From: Saccharothrix saharensis
GTDB lineage: Bacteria; Actinomycetota; Actinomycetes; Mycobacteriales; Pseudonocardiaceae
DNA: 64,000 nucleotides
Direction of reading: 5' to 3'
Assembly (NCBI RefSeq): GCF_006716745.1
Contig: NZ_VFPP01000001.1
Span: forward strand, 3,534,001-3,598,000
Shown piece by piece: positions 29,921 to 40,151 of this stretch. The notes below the pieces were generated by a model. It did no database searches and had not been told where the DNA came from. It saw nothing but the letters and a program-made list of their open reading frames with translations. A program made the translations under genes and the position numbers. The stretch's first letter is position 1. Each line of letters begins with the position of its first letter.

Positions 29921-31042
29921 GTGGTCGTGGACTCCCTGCGCGAGGCGTTGTGGCGGGCCGCGGCGAACCGCCGGGCCCGGCTGCCGCGCACCTCCTCCCT
30001 CCCACCGGCCGAAGTGGACGACGCGGTGCAGGCGGTGTTGAGGCGTGCGTTCGAGCACCTGTGGGAACACGGCTGGCTGCCCTACGACGTGTACGAGGTC
30101 GTGCGGCGCAACGAGGACGAGCGCGCGCTGTCGTTCCTGGTCGACTCGCTGGCGCTGGAGGCGTCCCGCTATCCCGCGCTGCACCCGCGCTGGCGGGAGC
30201 AGCTGGCGGAGATCGGGGCCGCGGTGTGGTGGGACGCCGACCAGCCGCACCTCGACCAGTGGGCCCGCCGGCACATCGAGCTGCGCGACGACGCCGTGGC
30301 CGCCGCGGTGGCGGTGCTGGCGGTGCTCGTCACGTTGCCCGCGCTGCCGGTGATCGTGCCGAAGCCGGGGACGCCGCTGGCCGCGATCGACCACCACCAC
30401 GTCGACCCGAAGATCCTCAACCGGGTGCGGGGGCTCTTGGCCAAGGCCGAGTCGACCGCGTTCCCGGACGAGGCGGAGGCGCTGTCGGCCAAGGCGCAGG
30501 AGCTCGTGACGCGGCACGCGTTGGAGCGGATGCCCTTGGAGGCGCCGACGACGACGTCCCGCCGGTTGTGGCTGGACAAGCGGTACTTCGACGGCAAGGC
30601 GCACGTCGTGCACGTGGTCGCGGAGGCCAACCGCTGCCGTGCCGTGGTGTACGACCTGGGGTTCGTGGCGCTGGTCGGCGAGGAGCTCGACCTGGAGATC
30701 GTGGAGCTGCTGTCGGCGTCGCTGCTGGTCCAGGCGACGCGGGCGATGGTCGCGGCGGGTGACAAGGCGCGCAAGGGCGACGAGGCCCGGTCGGCGGCGT
30801 TCCGCAAGTCGTTCCTGCTGTCCTACGCCCACCGGATCGGGGAGCGGTTGCGCGCGGCGAACGAGGTGCCCGCCGACGACGACCGGCTGCTGCCCGTGCT
30901 GGCGGAGCGGAAGAAGGCGGTGGAGGAGTACTTCGGCTCGATGTTCAGCCGGACTGTCGCCAAGTCGACGCCGGTGCGCAGCGCGGCGGGGTGGGACGCG
31001 GGTCGCTCGGCGGCGGACCGGGCGAACCTGTCGATCACCTGA
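29921..31042 (+). CDS. DUF2786 domain protein
   Basis: A 373-residue soluble protein. Residues about 1-150 are helical (LREALWRAAANRRARLP and VYEVVRRNEDERALSFLVDS). Residues about 158-200 are the DUF2786 motif (DPKILNRVRGLLAKAESTAF PDEAEALSAKAQEL split here by its conserved FPDEAEA), found in many phage and actinobacterial proteins of unknown role, followed by a DUF7168-like alpha/beta region and a helical tail with AYFRK-type lysines. GTG 29921 was used. It lies next to the methyltransferase/Vsr locus, and DUF2786 proteins are often seen near DNA-modification or mobile functions, but no activity has been established that I can cite. Confidence 0.75.
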   Translation: MVVDSLREALWRAAANRRARLPRTSSLPPAEVDDAVQAVLRRAFEHLWEHGWLPYDVYEVVRRNEDERALSFLVDSLALEASRYPALHPRWREQLAEIGAAVWWDADQPHLDQWARRHIELRDDAVAAAVAVLAVLVTLPALPVIVPKPGTPLAAIDHHHVDPKILNRVRGLLAKAESTAFPDEAEALSAKAQELVTRHALERMPLEAPTTTSRRLWLDKRYFDGKAHVVHVVAEANRCRAVVYDLGFVALVGEELDLEIVELLSASLLVQATRAMVAAGDKARKGDEARSAAFRKSFLLSYAHRIGERLRAANEVPADDDRLLPVLAERKKAVEEYFGSMFSRTVAKSTPVRSAAGWDAGRSAADRANLSIT

Positions 31043-31060
31043 CCTGCGGTTTCCCCGGAA

Positions 31061-31083
31061 CTGTCGGTGGTCGTCCGTACTCT
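31061..31083 (+). promoter_or_regulatory. RecA-NDp/PafBC-type DNA-damage promoter
   Basis: CTGTCGGTG (31061-31069), 8 nt, TACTCT (31078-31083) matches the LexA-independent actinobacterial damage promoter consensus TTGTCRGTG-N8-TANNNT at all but the first position, with exact spacing. The start codon lies 7 nt further on, so the transcript would be leaderless. In mycobacteria this element is activated by PafBC after DNA damage. Confidence 0.75.
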
Positions 31084-31090
31084 CCGCGTC

Positions 31091-31807
31091 ATGACCACCG
31101 CGATGGAAGTGCGCCGGCTGTTCAACGTCACGCAGGAGACCCGGTTCCACTTCAACCACTGGTACAGCGGGCGCAAGCACGTCGTGGGGCACGTGATGGC
31201 GCACGAGTCCGTGGCCGTGCACCGGGTCACCCCCGACGAGGTCGAGGCCGCGTGCCGGAGCGCGCCGCGGGCGGGTCCGGCGGACGTGCCGGAGATCCGG
31301 GGTTGGCGGCCGGACTTCGCCTTCGCGCACGTGGCGCACCACGTGGTCGAGGCGCTGGGCCGATTACCGGGCTGGCCGGAGTTCCGCGAGTTCTGCGAGG
31401 CCGACGAGCGGGCGCGGGGCATGTTGTGGACGCCGGCCCGCGAGGTGATCGCCGAGGTGGGGCCGGCGGGGCGGGCGGCCTTGCGCAACCGGGTGGTGTC
31501 CGAGTTCCTGGGGTTCCTGCGGGACGTGTACGTGGTCACGGTGTTGCGCGGGCACGGGCTGGACGTGCGGGTGCACCCGTTGGCGGACACCGTGTTCAAG
31601 GTGGACGCGTGGGTGGAGCGGCTGATCCTCAACCCGCGTGGCGGTGGGCAGCGGTCGGCGGAGCTGCTGGTGCACGCGATGCCGCCGTTCTTCTTCGCGG
31701 ACCTGGGGGTGAGCGAGTACACGCAGGTGGGCGCGGCGGTGCTGCCCGTGCGGGCCCAACTGGACCGGGCGGCGCGGCGGCTGCGGGACGTGCTGCACCC
31801 CGGGTGA
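31091..31807 (+). CDS. unrecognised protein at the Vsr/methyltransferase locus, candidate damage-induced nuclease or restriction partner
   Basis: A 238-residue soluble protein from ATG 31091, placed 7 nt after the -10 of a PafBC-type promoter. The sequence starts MTTAMEVRRLFNVTQETRFHF, has PEIRGWRPDFAFAHVAHHVV in the middle, and a C-terminal block with HGLDVRVHPLADTVFKVDAW followed by VERLIL. The alternation of a helix (FLGFLRDVYVVTVLRGHG), a strand and an acidic/lysine strand (TVFKVDAWV) is compatible with a PD-(D/E)xK-like nuclease core, but no complete D...ExK motif can be proven by eye. The gene precedes vsr and the cytosine methyltransferase on the same strand by 14 nt. I do not recognise the family; a nuclease role is inference from context. 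Confidence 0.55.
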   Translation: MTTAMEVRRLFNVTQETRFHFNHWYSGRKHVVGHVMAHESVAVHRVTPDEVEAACRSAPRAGPADVPEIRGWRPDFAFAHVAHHVVEALGRLPGWPEFREFCEADERARGMLWTPAREVIAEVGPAGRAALRNRVVSEFLGFLRDVYVVTVLRGHGLDVRVHPLADTVFKVDAWVERLILNPRGGGQRSAELLVHAMPPFFFADLGVSEYTQVGAAVLPVRAQLDRAARRLRDVLHPG

Positions 31808-31821
31808 GTCATGATGGCCGG

Positions 31822-32247
31822 GTGCCGAACCTGGAGACGACGGACGACGTCCGCGCCCGGATGAGCAAGCAGCGGTCCCGTGACACGGGCATCGAGGTGG
31901 CGTTGCGGCGTGAACTGCACCGGTTGGGGCTGCGGTACCGGGTGCACCAGCGGCCGGTGCGCGCGGTGCGGCGGGAGGCGGACGTGGTGTTCGGGCCGGC
32001 CAAGGTGGCGGTGTTCGTGGACGGGTGCTTCTGGCACGGCTGCCCGGAGCACGGCACCTGGCCCAAGCGCAACGGGGAGTTCTGGCGGACGAAGATCGAG
32101 GCGAACCAGGCGCGTGACGCGAACACCGACCAGGTGCTGGCCGACGCCGGGTGGCTCGCGGTGCGGGTCTGGGAGCACGAGGACCCGACCGTCGCGGCGA
32201 GTCGGGTGCGGACGGCGGTGCTGGCGCGGCGCGGTCGGCTAGCCTGA
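31822..32247 (+). CDS. vsr: very short patch repair endonuclease (Vsr)
   Basis: A 141-residue Vsr endonuclease, which nicks T:G mismatches arising from deamination of 5-methylcytosine. Family marks are complete: TTDDVRARMSKQRSRDTGIE at the N-terminus with the catalytic Asp region, VFVDGCFWHGCPEHGTWPK with the structural zinc ligands (Cys, His) and the active-site Asp, EFWRTKIEANQARD, and VRVWEHED near the C-terminus. GTG 31822 is used; CATGAT (31810-31815) lies 6 nt before it. It is 4 nt upstream of the methyltransferase gene, the normal pairing for protecting methylated sites from mutation. Confidence 0.95.
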   Translation: MPNLETTDDVRARMSKQRSRDTGIEVALRRELHRLGLRYRVHQRPVRAVRREADVVFGPAKVAVFVDGCFWHGCPEHGTWPKRNGEFWRTKIEANQARDANTDQVLADAGWLAVRVWEHEDPTVAASRVRTAVLARRGRLA

Positions 32248-32251
32248 GCCC

Positions 32252-33349
32252 GTGCTGTCCATGATCGACCTGTTCGCCGGCTGCGGTGGCATGACCTCCG
32301 GGTTCGCCGCGGCGGGCGGCTACCGGCCGGTCATGGCGGTCGAGTGGGACCTGCACGCGGCGGCCACGTACGCGGCGAACTTCGGCGAGGACCACATCCG
32401 CTGGTCGGACATCGCGGCCGTGCCGGACAGCGCGATCCCCGAGGTGGACGTGATCGTCGGCGGTCCGCCGTGCCAGGGTTTCTCGAACCTGGGCTCGAAG
32501 GACGTCAACGATCCGCGCAACTCGCTGTGGCGGGAGTACCTGCGGTTCGTGCGGCGGGCCCGGCCGTCGGTGTTCGTCATCGAGAACGTCGACCGGTTCC
32601 TGGCGTCGACCGAGTTCGCGTTGCTGCAGGCGGAGACCGAGGGCTACGAGCTGAGCCACGGCATCCTGCTCGCGGCGGATTTCGGCGTGCCGCAGCGGCG
32701 GCGGCGCACGATCGTGATCGGCTCGCGGATCGGGCGCATCCCGCTGCCGGTCGCGACGCACCCGCGCGGACGTTGGCACACGGTCGGTGACGTGCTGCGC
32801 GGCCTGCCGGAGCGGCCGGTGACGACGTCGTTGCCGACCTCGGTGGTGGAGTTCTTCGGGCGTGAGCTGCCCGGCCCGTTCAAGAGCCCGGACCTGCACA
32901 TCGGCCGCAACCCCACGCCGTTGTCGTTGGAGCGGTACCGGCACATCCCGCCGGGCGGGGGCCGGTTCGACCTGCCGCCGGACCTGCTGCCCCGGTGTTG
33001 GCGGGAGAAGAAGAGCGGCACGACCGACGTGATGGGCCGGATGCGGTGGGACGAGCCGTCGCTGACCATCCGCACCGAGTTCTACAAGCCGGAGAAGGGC
33101 CGCTACCTGCACCCGCAGTGGGAGCCGGGTGAGGACGGCCACCGGGTCGACCGCCCGATCACGCACCTGGAGGCGGCACGCCTGCAGTCGTTCCCGGACT
33201 CGTTCGAGTGGTGCGGCTCGAAGATCGAGGTGGCGCGGCAGATCGGCAACGCCGTGCCGCCGTCGTTGGCGCGGGCCATCGCCGAGCACCTCAAGCCGTA
33301 CCTGACGGGCTCGGAGCCGACCGCGCCGACGTGCCCGCTCTGCCCCTGA
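32252..33349 (+). CDS. DNA (cytosine-5) methyltransferase
   Basis: A 365-residue C5-methylase with the ordered motifs: I (MIDLFAGCGGMTSGF), IV (VIVGGPPCQGFSNLG with catalytic Cys), VI (FVIENV), VIII (FGVPQRRRRTIVIGSR), a target-recognition region about 190-290, and X (VARQIGNAVPPSLA). All catalytic residues are present. The Vsr gene directly upstream indicates a fixed methylated site, as in Dcm-like systems, but the recognised sequence cannot be read. Whether a restriction enzyme accompanies it depends on the identity of the gene at 31091. GTG 32252 lies 6 nt after TAGCCT. Confidence 0.95.
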   Translation: MLSMIDLFAGCGGMTSGFAAAGGYRPVMAVEWDLHAAATYAANFGEDHIRWSDIAAVPDSAIPEVDVIVGGPPCQGFSNLGSKDVNDPRNSLWREYLRFVRRARPSVFVIENVDRFLASTEFALLQAETEGYELSHGILLAADFGVPQRRRRTIVIGSRIGRIPLPVATHPRGRWHTVGDVLRGLPERPVTTSLPTSVVEFFGRELPGPFKSPDLHIGRNPTPLSLERYRHIPPGGGRFDLPPDLLPRCWREKKSGTTDVMGRMRWDEPSLTIRTEFYKPEKGRYLHPQWEPGEDGHRVDRPITHLEAARLQSFPDSFEWCGSKIEVARQIGNAVPPSLARAIAEHLKPYLTGSEPTAPTCPLCP

Positions 33350-33390
33350 TCGGACATTCGCTCCTCCGGTCCTCCGGCACGGGCCCGGAA

Positions 33391-33413
33391 TTGTCGGACC
33401 CCTCCGCTAGCGT
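33391..33413 (+). promoter_or_regulatory. RecA-NDp/PafBC-like promoter, near match
   Basis: TTGTCGGAC (33391-33399), 8 nt, TAGCGT (33408-33413) fits TTGTCRGTG-N8-TANNNT with two changes at the end of the first box. The start codon ATG 33421 follows after 7 nt. The same CCCGGAA leads into the box here and at 31061, hinting at a shared promoter class. Confidence 0.55.
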
Positions 33414-33420
33414 CATCACC

Positions 33421-33951
33421 ATGACGACAACCACGTACGAGAACGCGGTCCGCATCGGCTCCACGACCTACCAGGTGGTGGCCACCGCCGACCCGGACCT
33501 CTCCGTCGACCTGGCCGGTGTCGACGCCGCGGGCGCCATGGTGGCCGAGGGCGCGATCCGGATGCCGGCCGACGCCGGCGCGAAGATCGGCAGGCTGCTG
33601 GCGCAGGTGCTGGAGGCGTTGGGCAGGCTCAGCGCACCGTCCTCGCTCTCACCGCGCGACCGCCCGGCGAACGCCAACCAACCGTGGACCCGGGACCTGG
33701 ACGACGGCCTGCGCGCCGACTGGCTGGCCGCCACCACCGACACCCCGACCACCGACCTGATCCGCTCGATCGCGAAGCGCCTGGAACGCTCGCCCACCTC
33801 GATCAGGTCACGGCTGGCCAGGGTGGGCTGCGACCCGGACGTGCCCGGCCGGGTCCTGTCGGAGGAGGGCGCGGAGGTGTTCCGGGTTCAGGGTCGGGAT
33901 CAGGGCCGGGTCAGGGGCAAACCCGATTCGGGGGGTGAGGGCGTCGAGTGA
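33421..33951 (+). CDS. hypothetical protein with C-terminal HTH-like segment
   Basis: A 176-residue protein. The N-terminal half is beta-rich (AVRIGSTTYQVVATADPDLS, VDAAGAMVAEGAIRMPA) then a helix (GAKIGRLLAQVLEALGRLS). After a polar linker comes a helical block resembling a helix-turn-helix (TTDLIRSIAKRLERSPTSIR, SRLARVGCDPDVPGR), as in proteins that group helicase or nuclease functions with a small DNA-binding tail. The last 30 residues are Gly/Arg/Glu-rich. ATG 33421 lies 7 nt after the -10 of the damage-type promoter. Function unknown; a role in the DNA-damage response is inferred only from the promoter. Confidence 0.6.
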   Translation: MTTTTYENAVRIGSTTYQVVATADPDLSVDLAGVDAAGAMVAEGAIRMPADAGAKIGRLLAQVLEALGRLSAPSSLSPRDRPANANQPWTRDLDDGLRADWLAATTDTPTTDLIRSIAKRLERSPTSIRSRLARVGCDPDVPGRVLSEEGAEVFRVQGRDQGRVRGKPDSGGEGVE

Positions 33952-34303: not shown

Positions 34304-34968
34304 ACCACCCCTCTCCCGGCTCGAACACGAACCTGGTACCGCCCGTCCCGACCTGGACCGCGCGCAAGCCCGCAGGACAACCGACCCGCGCCAGCCCACC
34401 GGCCGAGTCGGCTTGCCGAGCCGAGCTGAGGCCAACGCTGCGTCGGTCCACCCCCGCCGGGCCGACCGGGGTCGCACCCGGGTCCGGTTCGAGCAACGTC
34501 GGGCGGGGCGCGGCTGCCTGATCGGGTCTCGACTGGCAGGCAAGGCGGGTGTCGCCGGTCGAGGGTGAACGGTGACGCCCCGGCTTGGGCCGGACAACGG
34601 TCGGTCGGGGCGAACCTGCCAGGCGCTGCCCCAGCCGGGTCCTGGACTTCCCGGGCTGGGCACGCTGCCCTCAGCCTCCTCCGGCGCTCCCCGGCGGCTC
34701 GGGCTTCTGCGGCGGAATGGCCGGGGTGCTCGCGGGGTGTTGTGCCGGCCGCACCCGATCGAGCGGACTGGGCCGGCCGAGCTGCCCGGCTCGGGCCGGA
34801 CCTGGTTGGGCCCGGAGCTGGTCGGCGCACATCGACGTGGGCACGGTCGGCCCACGCAGGCGGCACGGGCAGGGGTCGGCGCGGGCAGCGTCCGGGCCGG
34901 GCAGAGGTCGAGGTGGGCACCGGTCGGGCCGGGAGGGGGCGGTGCGGGCGCGGTTGGGTGGGGGCGAA
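34304..34968. other. 665-nt gene-poor stretch before the SNF2 gene
   Basis: No convincing gene was seen. Open frames exist on both strands but they are Pro/Arg/Gly-rich, lack ribosome sites and look like composition artefacts. The segment has phrases that recur with variation, such as GTGGGCACGGTCGG and GTGGGCACCGGTCGGGCC, and a palindromic CCGGCCGAGCTGCCCGGCTCGG near 34772. It could hold a long leader, a structured RNA or simply decayed sequence. Confidence 0.4.
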
Positions 34969-35004
34969 TTCGGGGTTGGTGGTGGTGGGGCGCATAGTGC
35001 TGGG

Positions 35005-37914
35005 GTGTTGGTGTTGCACGCGGTCGGTGTGGGTGGTGGGCGGGTTGGCGTCTGGGCGGAGGAGTCGGGGTTGCCGGGGCGGGTGGTGGGGCGGTTGCCG
35101 AGGAGAGCGGTCCGGCATCCGTTCGCGGTTGAGGCGGAGGTGTTGCGGCGGCTGGTCGGGGGTGTTGTCGGGGAGGTTCCGCTGAGGTTGCCGTCGTGGG
35201 CCGGTGGGCCGGTGGCGTCCCCCGAGTCGGTCCGCGAGAGGCGTGGGCGTGGGGTTGTCCGGTGGCGGGAATGGGTGGTTCCCGTGGTGTGGGTTGACGA
35301 GGTGGTGTTGGAGGGGTTGCCGGATTGTCGGGTTGGGGCGTCCGGCAAGTTCTGGGGTGAAGTGCTGGACTTCGCGGCGGGGTTGGTGCGGCGCGGGCGG
35401 GTTCTGCCGGGGATCGACGGGGATGGGGTCGCGCGGTGGCGGTCGGCTTTGTCCGGGGTTGACGCGTTGCGCTTCGCGGCGTTGCGGGCCAGTGCGCCGC
35501 AGTCGTTCCGGGGGACCGACGAGGCGGGTGATCTGGTCGAGGAGGTGCTGGATCGCGCGGTCGACCGGAAGGTCAGGGCCGTGTTGCCCGAGGACGGCCC
35601 GGGCGGGGAGGGGGTGGTCGGGCGGTGGTTGGACGCGTTGGTCGGTGAGCCGCGTGCCGTCGAGGACGCGGGGGCGTTGCGGGCGAAGTTGGCGGCGTGG
35701 CGGGCCGGTGGGCTACGCCAGAACCCGGTCCGCACGTGCTTCCGGCTCAACTCGCCCGACCAGGGCGGCATGGCGAAGGACGGGTGGCGGGTCGAGTTCC
35801 TGCTGCAGGCCGTCGACGAGCCGAGCGTGGTGGTGACCGCCGAACAGCTGTGGCGCAAGCAGGACGCGGTGTTGCGGCGGTGGGTCGGTCGGCCCGAGGA
35901 CGTGCTGCTCGGCGACCTCGGCCGGGCGGGGCGGCTGTACCCGGCGTTGGACCGGGCGCTCGCCGCTCGCCGGCCGGTGGAGTTGGAGCTGGACGTCGAG
36001 GGCGCGTACGACTTCCTCCAGCACGCGGCGGTGTTGGCGGAAGCCGGCTTCGGCGTGATGCTGCCGTCGTGGTGGCGCCGGCCCCAGCGGCTCGGGCTCC
36101 GGCTCACGGCCGCCAGTCGCGGCACGGCCGGTCAGGTGGCCAAGGAGAGCGAGCTCGGCCTCAAGGTCCTGATCGACTACAAGTGGGAGCTGGCGGTCGG
36201 CGACGAGCGGCTGACCGAGGCCGAGCTGCAGTCCCTCGCCGAGGCCAAGGTGCCGTTGGTGCGGGTCCGCGGCCAATGGGTGCACGTCGACCCGAAACGC
36301 CTCGCCACCGGCCTCGCGTTCCTCGAGCGCGGCGGCGGGCAGATGACGGCCGCCCAGGTCCTGCTGCACTCCGGCCTGCACCCCGAGGACGCCGACCTGC
36401 CCCTCCCGCTCAACGGCGTCAGCGCCACCGGCTGGCTCGGAGACCTGCTGTCCGGCGAGGTCGAGCACCACCTGGAGCCGGTCGCCCGGCCACCGGGCCT
36501 GGTCGCCGAACTGCGCCCCTACCAGCAACGCGGCCTGGCCTGGCTCGCGTTCCTCGACCGGCTGGGCCTGGGCGCGTGCCTGGCCGACGACATGGGCCTG
36601 GGCAAGACGGTCCAGCTCCTCGCCCTGGAAGCGCACAACCGCGCGCACGGCAAGCGGCTGCCGACGTTGCTGGTCTGCCCGATGTCGGTGGTGGGCAACT
36701 GGCAACGGGAAGCCGCCCGCTTCACCCCCGGCCTGGAGGTGCGGGTCTACCACGGCGCCGACCGGGCCCTGGACACCGACTGCGACCTGGTCATCACCAC
36801 CTACGCGGTCGTCGCGCGCGACGCCGGGAAGCTCGCCGGAACCGCCTGGGACCGGGTCGTGCTGGACGAGGCGCAGAACATCAAGAACAGCGCCACCCGC
36901 CAGTCGAAGGTGGTCCGGGCGCTGCCCGCACGGCACCGCGTCGCCCTGACCGGCACCCCGGTGGAGAACCGGCTGGCCGAGCTGTGGTCGATCATGGACT
37001 TCGTCAACCCCGGCGTCCTGGGCACCGTCAACACGTTCCGCGCCCGCTTCGCCGTCCCGATCGAACGCCACCACGACGAGGACGCGGCCGTCCGCCTGCG
37101 CCGCATCACCGGCCCGTTCGTGCTGCGCCGGCTCAAGACCGACCCGCGGATCATCACCGACCTGCCGGACAAGATCGAGGTCAAGCAGCTCTGCACGCTG
37201 ACCGCCGAACAGGCCACGCTCTACCAGGCCGTGGTGGACGACATGCTGGCCAAGATCGCCGAAGCGGAGGGTGTCAAGCGCAAGGGCCTGGTCCTGGCCA
37301 CCATGTCCCGCCTCAAGCAGGTCTGCAACCACCCGGCACAGCTCCTCGGCGACGGCTCGCGCGTCGCGGGCCGCTCCGGCAAGCTCGCCCGGCTGGAGGA
37401 GGTCCTGGACGAAGCCCTGGCCGACGGTGACAAGGCGTTGTGCTTCACCCAGTTCACCGCGTTCGGCTCCCTGGTCGTGCCGCACCTGGCCGCGCGCTTC
37501 GACACCGAGGTCCTCCACCTGCACGGCGGCACGTCGAAGCGGCAGCGCGACGAGATGGTGCGCCGGTTCCAGGAGCCGGGCGGCCCGTCGATCTTCGTGC
37601 TGTCGCTGAAGGCCGGCGGCACGGGCCTCAACCTGACCGCCGCGAACCACGTCGTCCACCTCGACCGCTGGTGGAACCCGGCGGTGGAGGACCAGGCCAC
37701 CGACCGGGCGTTCCGCATCGGCCAGCGCCACCACGTGCAGGTCCGCAAGTTCGTCACCGTCGGCACGCTGGAGGAGCGCATCGACCGGATGATCGAGGAG
37801 AAGCGCGGGCTGGCGCAGCTCGTGGTCGGCGCGGGCGAGGACTGGCTGACCGAGCTGTCCACCGGCGAGCTGCGCGAGCTGTTCGCCCTGTCCGGGGAGG
37901 CCGTCGGTGACTGA
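35005..37914 (+). CDS. SNF2-family DEAD/DEAH ATPase (actinobacterial Snf2 with N-terminal SNF2-associated domain)
   Basis: A 969-residue ATPase. The N-terminal 500 residues belong to the bacterial SNF2-associated type (for example FLLQAVDEPSVVVTAEQLWR, LMPSWWRRP-like PSWWRRPQRLGL). The helicase core starts near LRPYQQRGLAWLAFL: Walker A ADDMGLGKTVQ, Walker B VLDEAQNIKN, motif III ALTGTPVENRLAELWS, and in the second lobe SLKAGGTGLNLTAANHV and DRAFRIGQRHHVQV. Such enzymes remodel protein-DNA complexes. The start GTG 35005 lies 6 nt after CATAGT (34993-34998); upstream frame extension is low-complexity and rejected. The SWIM-domain gene overlaps its end, the usual pairing for this family. Confidence 0.88.
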   Translation: MLVLHAVGVGGGRVGVWAEESGLPGRVVGRLPRRAVRHPFAVEAEVLRRLVGGVVGEVPLRLPSWAGGPVASPESVRERRGRGVVRWREWVVPVVWVDEVVLEGLPDCRVGASGKFWGEVLDFAAGLVRRGRVLPGIDGDGVARWRSALSGVDALRFAALRASAPQSFRGTDEAGDLVEEVLDRAVDRKVRAVLPEDGPGGEGVVGRWLDALVGEPRAVEDAGALRAKLAAWRAGGLRQNPVRTCFRLNSPDQGGMAKDGWRVEFLLQAVDEPSVVVTAEQLWRKQDAVLRRWVGRPEDVLLGDLGRAGRLYPALDRALAARRPVELELDVEGAYDFLQHAAVLAEAGFGVMLPSWWRRPQRLGLRLTAASRGTAGQVAKESELGLKVLIDYKWELAVGDERLTEAELQSLAEAKVPLVRVRGQWVHVDPKRLATGLAFLERGGGQMTAAQVLLHSGLHPEDADLPLPLNGVSATGWLGDLLSGEVEHHLEPVARPPGLVAELRPYQQRGLAWLAFLDRLGLGACLADDMGLGKTVQLLALEAHNRAHGKRLPTLLVCPMSVVGNWQREAARFTPGLEVRVYHGADRALDTDCDLVITTYAVVARDAGKLAGTAWDRVVLDEAQNIKNSATRQSKVVRALPARHRVALTGTPVENRLAELWSIMDFVNPGVLGTVNTFRARFAVPIERHHDEDAAVRLRRITGPFVLRRLKTDPRIITDLPDKIEVKQLCTLTAEQATLYQAVVDDMLAKIAEAEGVKRKGLVLATMSRLKQVCNHPAQLLGDGSRVAGRSGKLARLEEVLDEALADGDKALCFTQFTAFGSLVVPHLAARFDTEVLHLHGGTSKRQRDEMVRRFQEPGGPSIFVLSLKAGGTGLNLTAANHVVHLDRWWNPAVEDQATDRAFRIGQRHHVQVRKFVTVGTLEERIDRMIEEKRGLAQLVVGAGEDWLTELSTGELRELFALSGEAVGD

Positions 37915-39009: not shown

Positions 39010-40074
39010 TCACACCTCCGCCGCGCGCACGCACACCACGTCGGGCAGGTGCTCGGCGATCCGCCGCCAGCTCTCCCCCTCGTCCGCGCTCGCGTACACC
39101 TCGCCCGAGCGCGACCCGAAGTAGACGCCCGCCGGGTCGGCCGAGTCCGTGCACATCGCGTCACGCATCACGGCCGTCCAGAAGCCGTCCGGCAGACCGC
39201 CGCGCAACGCCTCCCACGACGACCCGCCGTCCGACGAGCGGTACACCGCGCACCGGCCGCCGGGCGGGAACCGCTCGCCGTCCGCGGTCAGCGGGAAGGT
39301 GTAGATCACGTCCGGCCGGTGCGGGTGGCTGACCACGGGGAACCCGAAGTCGGCGGGCAGGCCGTCGGCGATGGACGTCCACGTGGCCCCCGCGTCGTCC
39401 GACCGGTACACGCCGTGGTGGTTCTGCAGGAACAGCCGCTCCGGCCGGGACGGGTGCCGGCTCACCTTGTGCACGCACTGGCCGAACTCCGGGTACGGGT
39501 CGGGCAGGAAGTACGCCTTGATGCCGGTGTTGCTCGCCTCCCACGACGACCCGCCGTCGAACGACCGGTACACGCCGCCGGTGGACATCGCCACGGTCAG
39601 CTTGAGCGGGTCGGCCGGGTCGGGCAGCACGGTGTGGATCGCCTGCCCGCCGAACCCCGCGCCCCACCGCTCCCGGTGCGGGTGCTTCCACAGGCCTTCC
39701 ACCAGCGCGTACGTCCGGCCGCCGTCCTCCGAGCGGAACAACGCGGACGGCTGCGTGCCCGCGTACACGACCTCCGGGTCCGGGGTCGGCGCGAGCTGCC
39801 ACACCCGTTCCAGCGCGGTGTCGGCCGGGAACGCGATCGGCGCGTGGTCCGGCTCGTCCCAGGTCGCGCCGAGGTCGTCGCTGGTGACGACGGTCGGGCC
39901 GAAGTGGGAGCTGCTGGTGCCGACCAGCAGCCGCGGCCGGTCGCGGCGGTGGTCGATCGCGATCGCGTAGACCTCGGTCATCGGGTGGTGCGGTCCGCTG
40001 AGGCTCCAGGACGTGCGGTCTTCGCTGGTCGCGAGCCACAGGCCCTTGCGGGTGCCGATGGCGAGCAGGTGCAT
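39010..40074 (-). CDS. BNR/Asp-box repeat beta-propeller protein (sialidase-like fold)
   Basis: A 354-residue protein with six Asp-box turns of the S-x-D-x-G-x-T/S-W type: SDDLGATW, SEDGGRTY, SFDGGSSW, SDDAGATW, SSDGGSSW and SADEGESW, evenly spaced as in a six-bladed propeller. There is no signal peptide, so it is probably cytoplasmic, unlike true sialidases; the conserved arginine triad and Tyr/Glu pair of sialidases were not identified, so a hydrolase name would be misleading. ATG 40074 follows GGAGGAGTG. It is co-transcribed with the MoaD-like gene 1 nt downstream. Confidence 0.82.
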   Translation of the reverse strand: MHLLAIGTRKGLWLATSEDRTSWSLSGPHHPMTEVYAIAIDHRRDRPRLLVGTSSSHFGPTVVTSDDLGATWDEPDHAPIAFPADTALERVWQLAPTPDPEVVYAGTQPSALFRSEDGGRTYALVEGLWKHPHRERWGAGFGGQAIHTVLPDPADPLKLTVAMSTGGVYRSFDGGSSWEASNTGIKAYFLPDPYPEFGQCVHKVSRHPSRPERLFLQNHHGVYRSDDAGATWTSIADGLPADFGFPVVSHPHRPDVIYTFPLTADGERFPPGGRCAVYRSSDGGSSWEALRGGLPDGFWTAVMRDAMCTDSADPAGVYFGSRSGEVYASADEGESWRRIAEHLPDVVCVRAAEV

Positions 40075-40151
40075 GGTCACTCCTCCGTTGTGACGCGCAG
40101 CACACTACGCCGAGGGTCCGACACCCGCGCCCCGGCCGAGGAACCACACAA

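Follow-up and report, generated by a model that had tools for sequence, protein, structure and literature searches.

The locus described here lies in a 64,000-nucleotide (nt) stretch of the genome of the actinobacterium Saccharothrix saharensis (NCBI RefSeq assembly GCF_006716745.1, contig NZ_VFPP01000001.1, positions 3,534,001 to 3,598,000), hereafter called the window, to whose first letter the coordinates below refer. It comprises a gene for a 238-residue protein, here designated U, preceded by a promoter motif of the type recognised by PafBC and followed by genes for a very short patch repair endonuclease (vsr) and a C5-cytosine DNA methyltransferase (dcm). We tentatively propose that U is a damage-inducible companion of C5-methyltransferase restriction-modification islands, mostly of the NaeI/NgoMIV type, and that it acts on their protective side. 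The proposal draws on comparative sequence evidence, namely the U family, its neighbourhoods and its recurrent PafBC-type promoter, which stands before none of the NaeI, NgoMIV and HNH genes examined. The features of the locus are:

31061..31083, + strand: PafBC/RecA-NDp-type promoter, CTGTCGGTG-N8-TACTCT, assigned by motif match; the spacer N8 is GTCGTCCG
31091..31807, + strand: gene U, 238 amino acids (aa), ATG at 31091; an open reading frame (ORF) without family match
31574..31612, + strand: HPLADTVFKVDAW block, U residues 162-174, the best-conserved block of the U family (coordinates computed from the start at 31091)
31822..32247, + strand: vsr, very short patch repair endonuclease, 141 aa (TIGR00632, PF03852)
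32240..32245, + strand: TAGCCT, probable -10 element of a separate dcm promoter, with no TGTC element at -26
32252..33349, + strand: dcm, C5-cytosine DNA methyltransferase, 365 aa (PF00145)

This arrangement had been proposed in the initial annotation, and its gene assignments hold. Vsr matches TIGR00632 with 113.6 bits (cut-off 97.85) and PF03852 with an E value of 6.9e-18, and the dcm product matches PF00145 (E 5.7e-61), so that the methyltransferase of a type II restriction-modification system is present. The 14 nt noted between the U stop codon and the vsr GTG at 31822 were likewise found, as a spacing that is not conserved in the genus (the gap is wider in several relatives). No cognate restriction endonuclease was recognisable among the five proteins at 29921-33948 searched with Pfam, PADLOC and NCBIfam, and neither NaeI nor NgoMIV had a match in the window genome.

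The RecA-NDp motif is that of PafBC (PMC6789036; PMC8223512), which is described as being activated by single-stranded DNA and as working at a promoter motif at -26 (PMC11804915). The strict form of the motif, TGTCRGTG-N8-TANNNT, stands before the U start, with 7 nt between its end at 31083 and the ATG; given this distance, the U transcript is probably nearly leaderless. The U promoter shares the -26 motif, the 8-nt spacer and the TANNNT -10 element with the PafBC/RecA-NDp regulon of actinobacteria, and differs from its members in that U is no recognised repair gene.

The near-perfect promoter claimed in the initial annotation is thereby upheld, as it also is by the distribution of the motif in the host. 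The window contains a single TGTCGGTG-N8-TANNNT site, where 100 dinucleotide shuffles predict 0.01, and the whole 8.92-Mb genome contains 19, with 0 for the reversed-pattern control; TGTCGGAC-N8-TANNNT occurs 25 times, again with 0 for the control. Sites of the TGTCGGTG form lie 5′ of uvrA, uvrC, pcrA/uvrD, a ligA, the proteasome ATPase gene (mpa) and others. That the TGTCGGAC form is unrelated to it was considered and rejected, since this form precedes recA, polA, another ligA and dnaX. All nine motif-preceded gene products chosen for an NCBIfam check had their identities confirmed. The host genome has two distinct NAD-dependent ligase genes (L028 and L199), one with the TGTCGGTG form and the other with the TGTCGGAC form. 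Repair genes do not follow every motif site. Of the 25 TGTCGGAC sites, ten crowd the first 0.19 Mb, where the three inspected adjoin, by our reading, polyketide-synthase-like genes; these ten are probably not promoters. Two WYL proteins encoded in tandem, about 1 kb apart, fit PafB-PafC; the first had no NCBIfam match at 1e-20.

The U protein had been reported as unrecognised, and it remains so after profile searches. For the window protein, Pfam and PADLOC gave nothing at E<=1, and NCBIfam gave a single chance-level match (E 0.16, far under the cut-off). Extending the searches to further family members gave weak, scattered Pfam matches (12 and 18 members; the best, Kdo, at 0.011 in one of 18), an NCBIfam best of 0.0052 (acylphosphatase, in two of 18), and nothing usable in PHROGs (18 members). 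PDB profile searches returned, at best, E values of 0.49 and 0.16 for Brix-domain and ribosomal proteins, which we judged to be chance. Judged by these searches, U is a small protein family unnamed in any profile library used here. The structure prediction suggested alongside the profile search was also run, and it yielded two poor AlphaFold2 models (mean predicted local distance difference test scores, pLDDT, of 38.1 and 46.2). In the better one, of a phage copy described below, the sole part above pLDDT 60 is helical, at about residues 90-160; Foldseek found no match at E<=0.001 with models that are themselves poor.

Invariant or near-invariant positions of the family are F11, W72, H83, E87, F98, P115, F142, HPLAD (162-166), F169, D172, W174 and two glycines, with HPLAD invariant and D172 almost so in the family alignment. 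A loop bearing GRK is found in ten other intact copies and the phage copy, and the Saccharothrix copies are without it. We speculate that H83xxxE87 and H162xxxD166 could bind metal.

The initial annotation suggested that the HPLADTVFKVDAW block could belong to a PD-(D/E)XK nuclease, and a related possibility is that U is a restriction nuclease or a toxic one, induced by damage. In Saccharothrix it would then form the restriction component of a U-Vsr-Dcm system, and in NaeI/NgoMIV islands it would be an additional nuclease. Its position as the gene directly 5′ of vsr-dcm, without other assignment, would suit such a role. The alignment does not: where a second catalytic acid would be required, U relatives have N, A, D, E or S, and no conserved (D/E)xK or invariant K was found in the 18 genus members, the ten other intact members or the phage copy. 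There is no Pfam nuclease match, and hhalign gave the U profile probabilities of 0.8% with Vsr and 0.1% with NaeI. With no catalytic pattern conserved and no profile link to either enzyme, the sequence does not support an assignment of U to the PD-(D/E)XK nucleases, and we regard the broader nuclease explanation as unlikely.

Within Saccharothrix, dcm is present in all 25 genomes (fragmented in one, G790), and vsr lies upstream of it at each of the 24 loci that could be assessed for U-vsr-dcm. U is intact at 18 of these 24, truncated at two (G780 and G389) and missing at four (G777, which has a short 3′ remnant, G786, G150 and G083). Among the 18 intact U genes, 17 have the strict motif in front of them, the exception being G796 with CGTCGGAC. 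The motif is absent from five of the six loci without intact U, at which vsr-dcm is retained; G780 has kept the promoter although most of U is gone. We thus rejected, for Saccharothrix, the view that the motif is a property of vsr-dcm. On the dcm tree, the distribution of U requires three changes, and well-supported branches make two of these unavoidable; we read this as U having been lost repeatedly from loci that kept vsr and dcm. G389, one of the two genomes with truncated U, has a second methylase on another contig (L155, contig C57), 91% identical to that of the window; the 6 kb fetched around it gave no match to vsr or U.

Purifying selection acts on intact U. In 36 pairs among nine close genomes, picked from the 18 with intact U, its median ratio of nonsynonymous to synonymous substitution rates (dN/dS) is 0.22 (range 0.10-0.37), compared with 0.11 for vsr and 0.15 for dcm. 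Restriction genes often get lost in this way, and both the higher dN/dS of U relative to the methylase and its loss while dcm stays speak for a nuclease.

The initial annotation also envisaged one damage-induced unit that includes the methylase. This is doubtful in view of the five loci just mentioned, at which vsr-dcm persists without intact U and the motif, and of a -10-like hexamer a few nt 5′ of the dcm GTG in the 24 genus loci, with no TGTC at -26. The hexamer is TAGCCT in most of them and TAACCT, TACCGT or TAGCAT in four, and we infer that dcm has a separate promoter.

Relatives of U are scattered. A single-protein search found U in three of 298 genomes of the same order, and a profile search gave eight matches in 397, of which three (G104, G201 and G091; E 0.004-0.009) were treated as chance. 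In the genus of G214, of the same order, eight of 118 genomes have U. A search of the class gave four matches in 276 genomes, with U in two genomes of another order, and a search of the phylum gave two in 396, one of them weak (G492). The class match in G1109 (E 6e-4, 201 bases) resembles a tyrosine-recombinase gene and was dropped. No U was found in the plasmid and phage collections. By these counts the family is rare.

The survey of related loci proposed in the initial annotation ties U to restriction-modification genes in further genera. It covered ten intact copies and one broken copy (L044), all in bacterial genomes, the broken one being excluded from the intact-U counts. Every intact copy lies within about 10 kb of a gene for NaeI (seven: L043, L168, L169, L170 at about 7 kb, L171, L172 and L175), NgoMIV (two: L173 and L174) or a C5-methyltransferase (nine, that is, all except L170). 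HNH or AspBHI-type genes also occur near U at several of these loci, and the broken copy lies between HNH genes, near a methylase 66% identical to that of the window. Linkage to restriction systems, as would be expected of a restriction-alleviation gene, is thus seen at all ten intact loci and not on the 8-kb phage contig. Of the 397 genomes searched in the order, 24 have NaeI, which puts chance co-location within 10 kb far below 1% per locus, a rough figure that assumes a mean genome size. Together, these neighbourhoods support a lasting link between U and restriction-modification genes that extends beyond Saccharothrix.

The same neighbourhoods bear on a second explanation, in which U would be a PafBC-type-induced repair factor beside Vsr for lesions arising from C5-methylation, such as deaminated 5-methylcytosine, methylase-DNA adducts or alkylated cytosine. 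A C5-methylase near nine of the ten intact copies outside the genus, and beside U within it, would fit, as would a promoter type common to repair genes and the persistence of U in a window genome that lacks recognised NaeI and NgoMIV. Set against this, nine of those ten copies are near NaeI or NgoMIV, not merely near any methylase, and U is truncated or missing at six of the 24 genus loci that retain vsr and dcm. We consider a repair factor of this kind unlikely.

Predicted control by damage can be compared among gene classes. The relaxed pattern TGTCNG-N10-TANNNT, with a background of 0.0087 expected per locus (160 nt), lies 60-88 nt 5′ of nine of the ten intact U copies outside the genus (nine of 11 with L044); unlike those of Saccharothrix, these promoters would give a leader of several tens of bases. 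A census of 36 loci outside the window (11 with U and 25 around NaeI matches), in which gene counts depend on a crude gene caller, found the pattern before seven of 22 dcm genes (three of nine in U loci, four of 13 elsewhere), 0 of 29 NaeI genes (six of them in U loci), 0 of six NgoMIV, 0 of eight vsr and 0 of three HNH genes. One NaeI locus, L093, has Vsr and no U, and a PafBC-type motif stands before both of its window-type methylases (68% and 53%).

As far as the motif predicts it, damage control would thus mark U and some methylases and not NaeI or NgoMIV, with one AspBHI-like gene excepted, so that U (9/10) appears to be regulated apart from these nucleases (0/29 and 0/6). The motif at 0 of 38 NaeI, NgoMIV and HNH genes, compared with seven of 22 methylase genes, argues against a restriction enzyme expressed on DNA damage, as the initial annotation had envisaged, and the same figures count against a nuclease identity for U. 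The AspBHI-like case (one of four) shows that a restriction gene can bear the motif.

At two loci (L168 and L172), U and dcm are divergent, with a motif at each. Such pairs, the accessory size of U and its recurrent neighbourhood would suit a controller-like regulator of the adjacent methylase or nuclease genes, raised after damage. However, the weak matches that the 18 members gave in Pfam and NCBIfam include no helix-turn-helix family, gene order and partner types vary, and vsr-dcm persists without U; a regulator seems improbable.

Nine methylases were compared with that of the window in the target-recognition core. Six of them, five from NaeI loci and that of L044, show 67-78% identity to it; the remaining three, of which two come from NaeI loci and one lies next to NgoMIV, show 54-57%. 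On two plasmids, L215 (NZ_CP110617.1) and L216 (NZ_CP025550.1), a 64% identical methylase adjoins NgoMIV with Vsr near; U searches of the collection that holds these plasmids found nothing. NaeI and NgoMIV both recognise GCCGGC. From this site and the kinship of the methylases, the likely target of the window Dcm is GCCGGC, or CCGG within it.

One U relative stands in a viral setting. The 8-kb IMG/VR contig L214 encodes a protein with 34% identity to U in its best segment, with ribonucleotide reductase on one side and, beyond, a phosphoadenosine phosphosulfate (PAPS) reductase, a ParB-like gene and a tail-completion protein among others. Searches of viral contigs with the A4 protein as query recovered this contig, and the contig's own protein recovered it alone; with the A1 or L002 protein as query, no U relative was found. 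No restriction enzyme was recognised in the eight ORFs of L214 searched, and a methylase label appears just once, for the ParB-like protein, as a match that is not its top-ranked one (phrog_498, E 1.3e-10). A phage contig that bears U without a clearly recognised methylase in these ORFs is a further point against a nuclease, as an anti-restriction protein would be more useful to a phage than a restriction enzyme without its methylase.

The motif at U and some methylases and not at NaeI or NgoMIV, together with the phage copy, leads us to favour a protective role. A restriction-alleviation or site-protection factor, put forward with the same reserve as the proposal at the outset, is preferred to a nuclease, which we have called unlikely. 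PafBC, activated by single-stranded DNA, would turn U on after damage, and U would shield under-methylated sites in the cell's own DNA, or damp restriction, during repair. It would act on the DNA site common to the nucleases, or on DNA cut or modified there; this is likelier than binding to one nuclease, because U accompanies two dissimilar nucleases and two dissimilar types of methylase. In Saccharothrix, U persists beside Vsr and Dcm, with no NaeI or NgoMIV partner recognised in the genome of the window, and is itself being lost.

A fuller version is possible, and we hold it with less confidence than the protective role as such. U would be a dedicated type II alleviation protein, raised by PafBC (in some strains together with the methylase), that prevents cuts at unmethylated sites made by repair in the cell's own genome. 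A phage would have captured it for use against restriction, and the Saccharothrix protein would guard against incoming enzymes of the same specificity, or would have taken on a repair role with Vsr.

Several observations weigh against a protective companion. The chief one is that Saccharothrix retains U in the absence of recognised NaeI or NgoMIV: NaeI was found in one of five genus genomes searched, that of the window being negative, and NgoMIV in 0 of 25, by a search that matched no control genome either. With U under purifying selection there and the nucleases not found, a pure NaeI/NgoMIV inhibitor would lack a target, and since Saccharothrix keeps U in this setting, a repair role beside Vsr or a nuclease role retains some probability. 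U is also absent from all 25 loci fetched around NaeI matches. As to the promoter, L174 and the broken L044 are without the motif, the strict TGTCRGTG form occurs at just two of the 11 U loci outside the genus, the relaxed pattern was picked after inspection of the sequences, one of four AspBHI-like restriction genes carries it, and the 1 kb inspected 5′ of the WYL pair contains no pafA. Finally, the phage evidence is a single contig, and no fold or activity could be predicted for U.

The surroundings of the locus are partly conserved. Upstream, a DUF2786 protein (29921-31042) is present at 22 of 24 genus loci; downstream, an SNF2-type helicase (34585-37914) is present at eight of nine longer ones. 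The gene after dcm (33421-33951, 176 residues) has a weak winged helix-turn-helix match and a PafBC-type promoter of its own, TTGTCGGAC-N8-TAGCGT at 33391-33413, 7 nt 5′ of its ATG; TGTCNG-N10-TANNNT occupies this position at 17 of 19 aligned genus loci, including G389, G786, G150 and G083, which have no intact U. On the - strand, TGTCGGAC-N8-TANNNT at 40102-40124 lies 21 nt 5′ of an ORF of 356 residues (39010-40080).

Among known systems, NaeI/NgoMIV type II systems resemble the window locus in their C5-methylase type and Vsr, and differ in that U is an added component. Dcm-Vsr pairs likewise combine a C5-methylase with an adjacent Vsr; the Saccharothrix pair differs in being genus-wide and flanked by two genes with PafBC-type promoters. 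A functional parallel is alleviation of the type I enzyme EcoKI through ClpXP, in which self-restriction drops when unmodified host sites arise (PMC4231737; PMC11109961). The role proposed for U would likewise lessen self-restriction at unmodified host sites; the difference is that a type I enzyme undergoes proteolysis there, whereas U is a gene beside type II genes. A limited literature search found no description of the U family or of a PafBC-controlled restriction companion; other restriction-associated families are described in PMC2292703 and PMC8011034.

Type II restriction enzymes should threaten a cell that is under repair, as repair and recombination may create unmethylated sites. U offers a protein family new to the profile libraries used here, with a testable NaeI/NgoMIV pairing, and a damage-induced gene that accompanies these enzymes in at least two orders of actinobacteria, and shares its promoter class with recA and uvrA, would give a direct handle on this conflict between restriction and repair.

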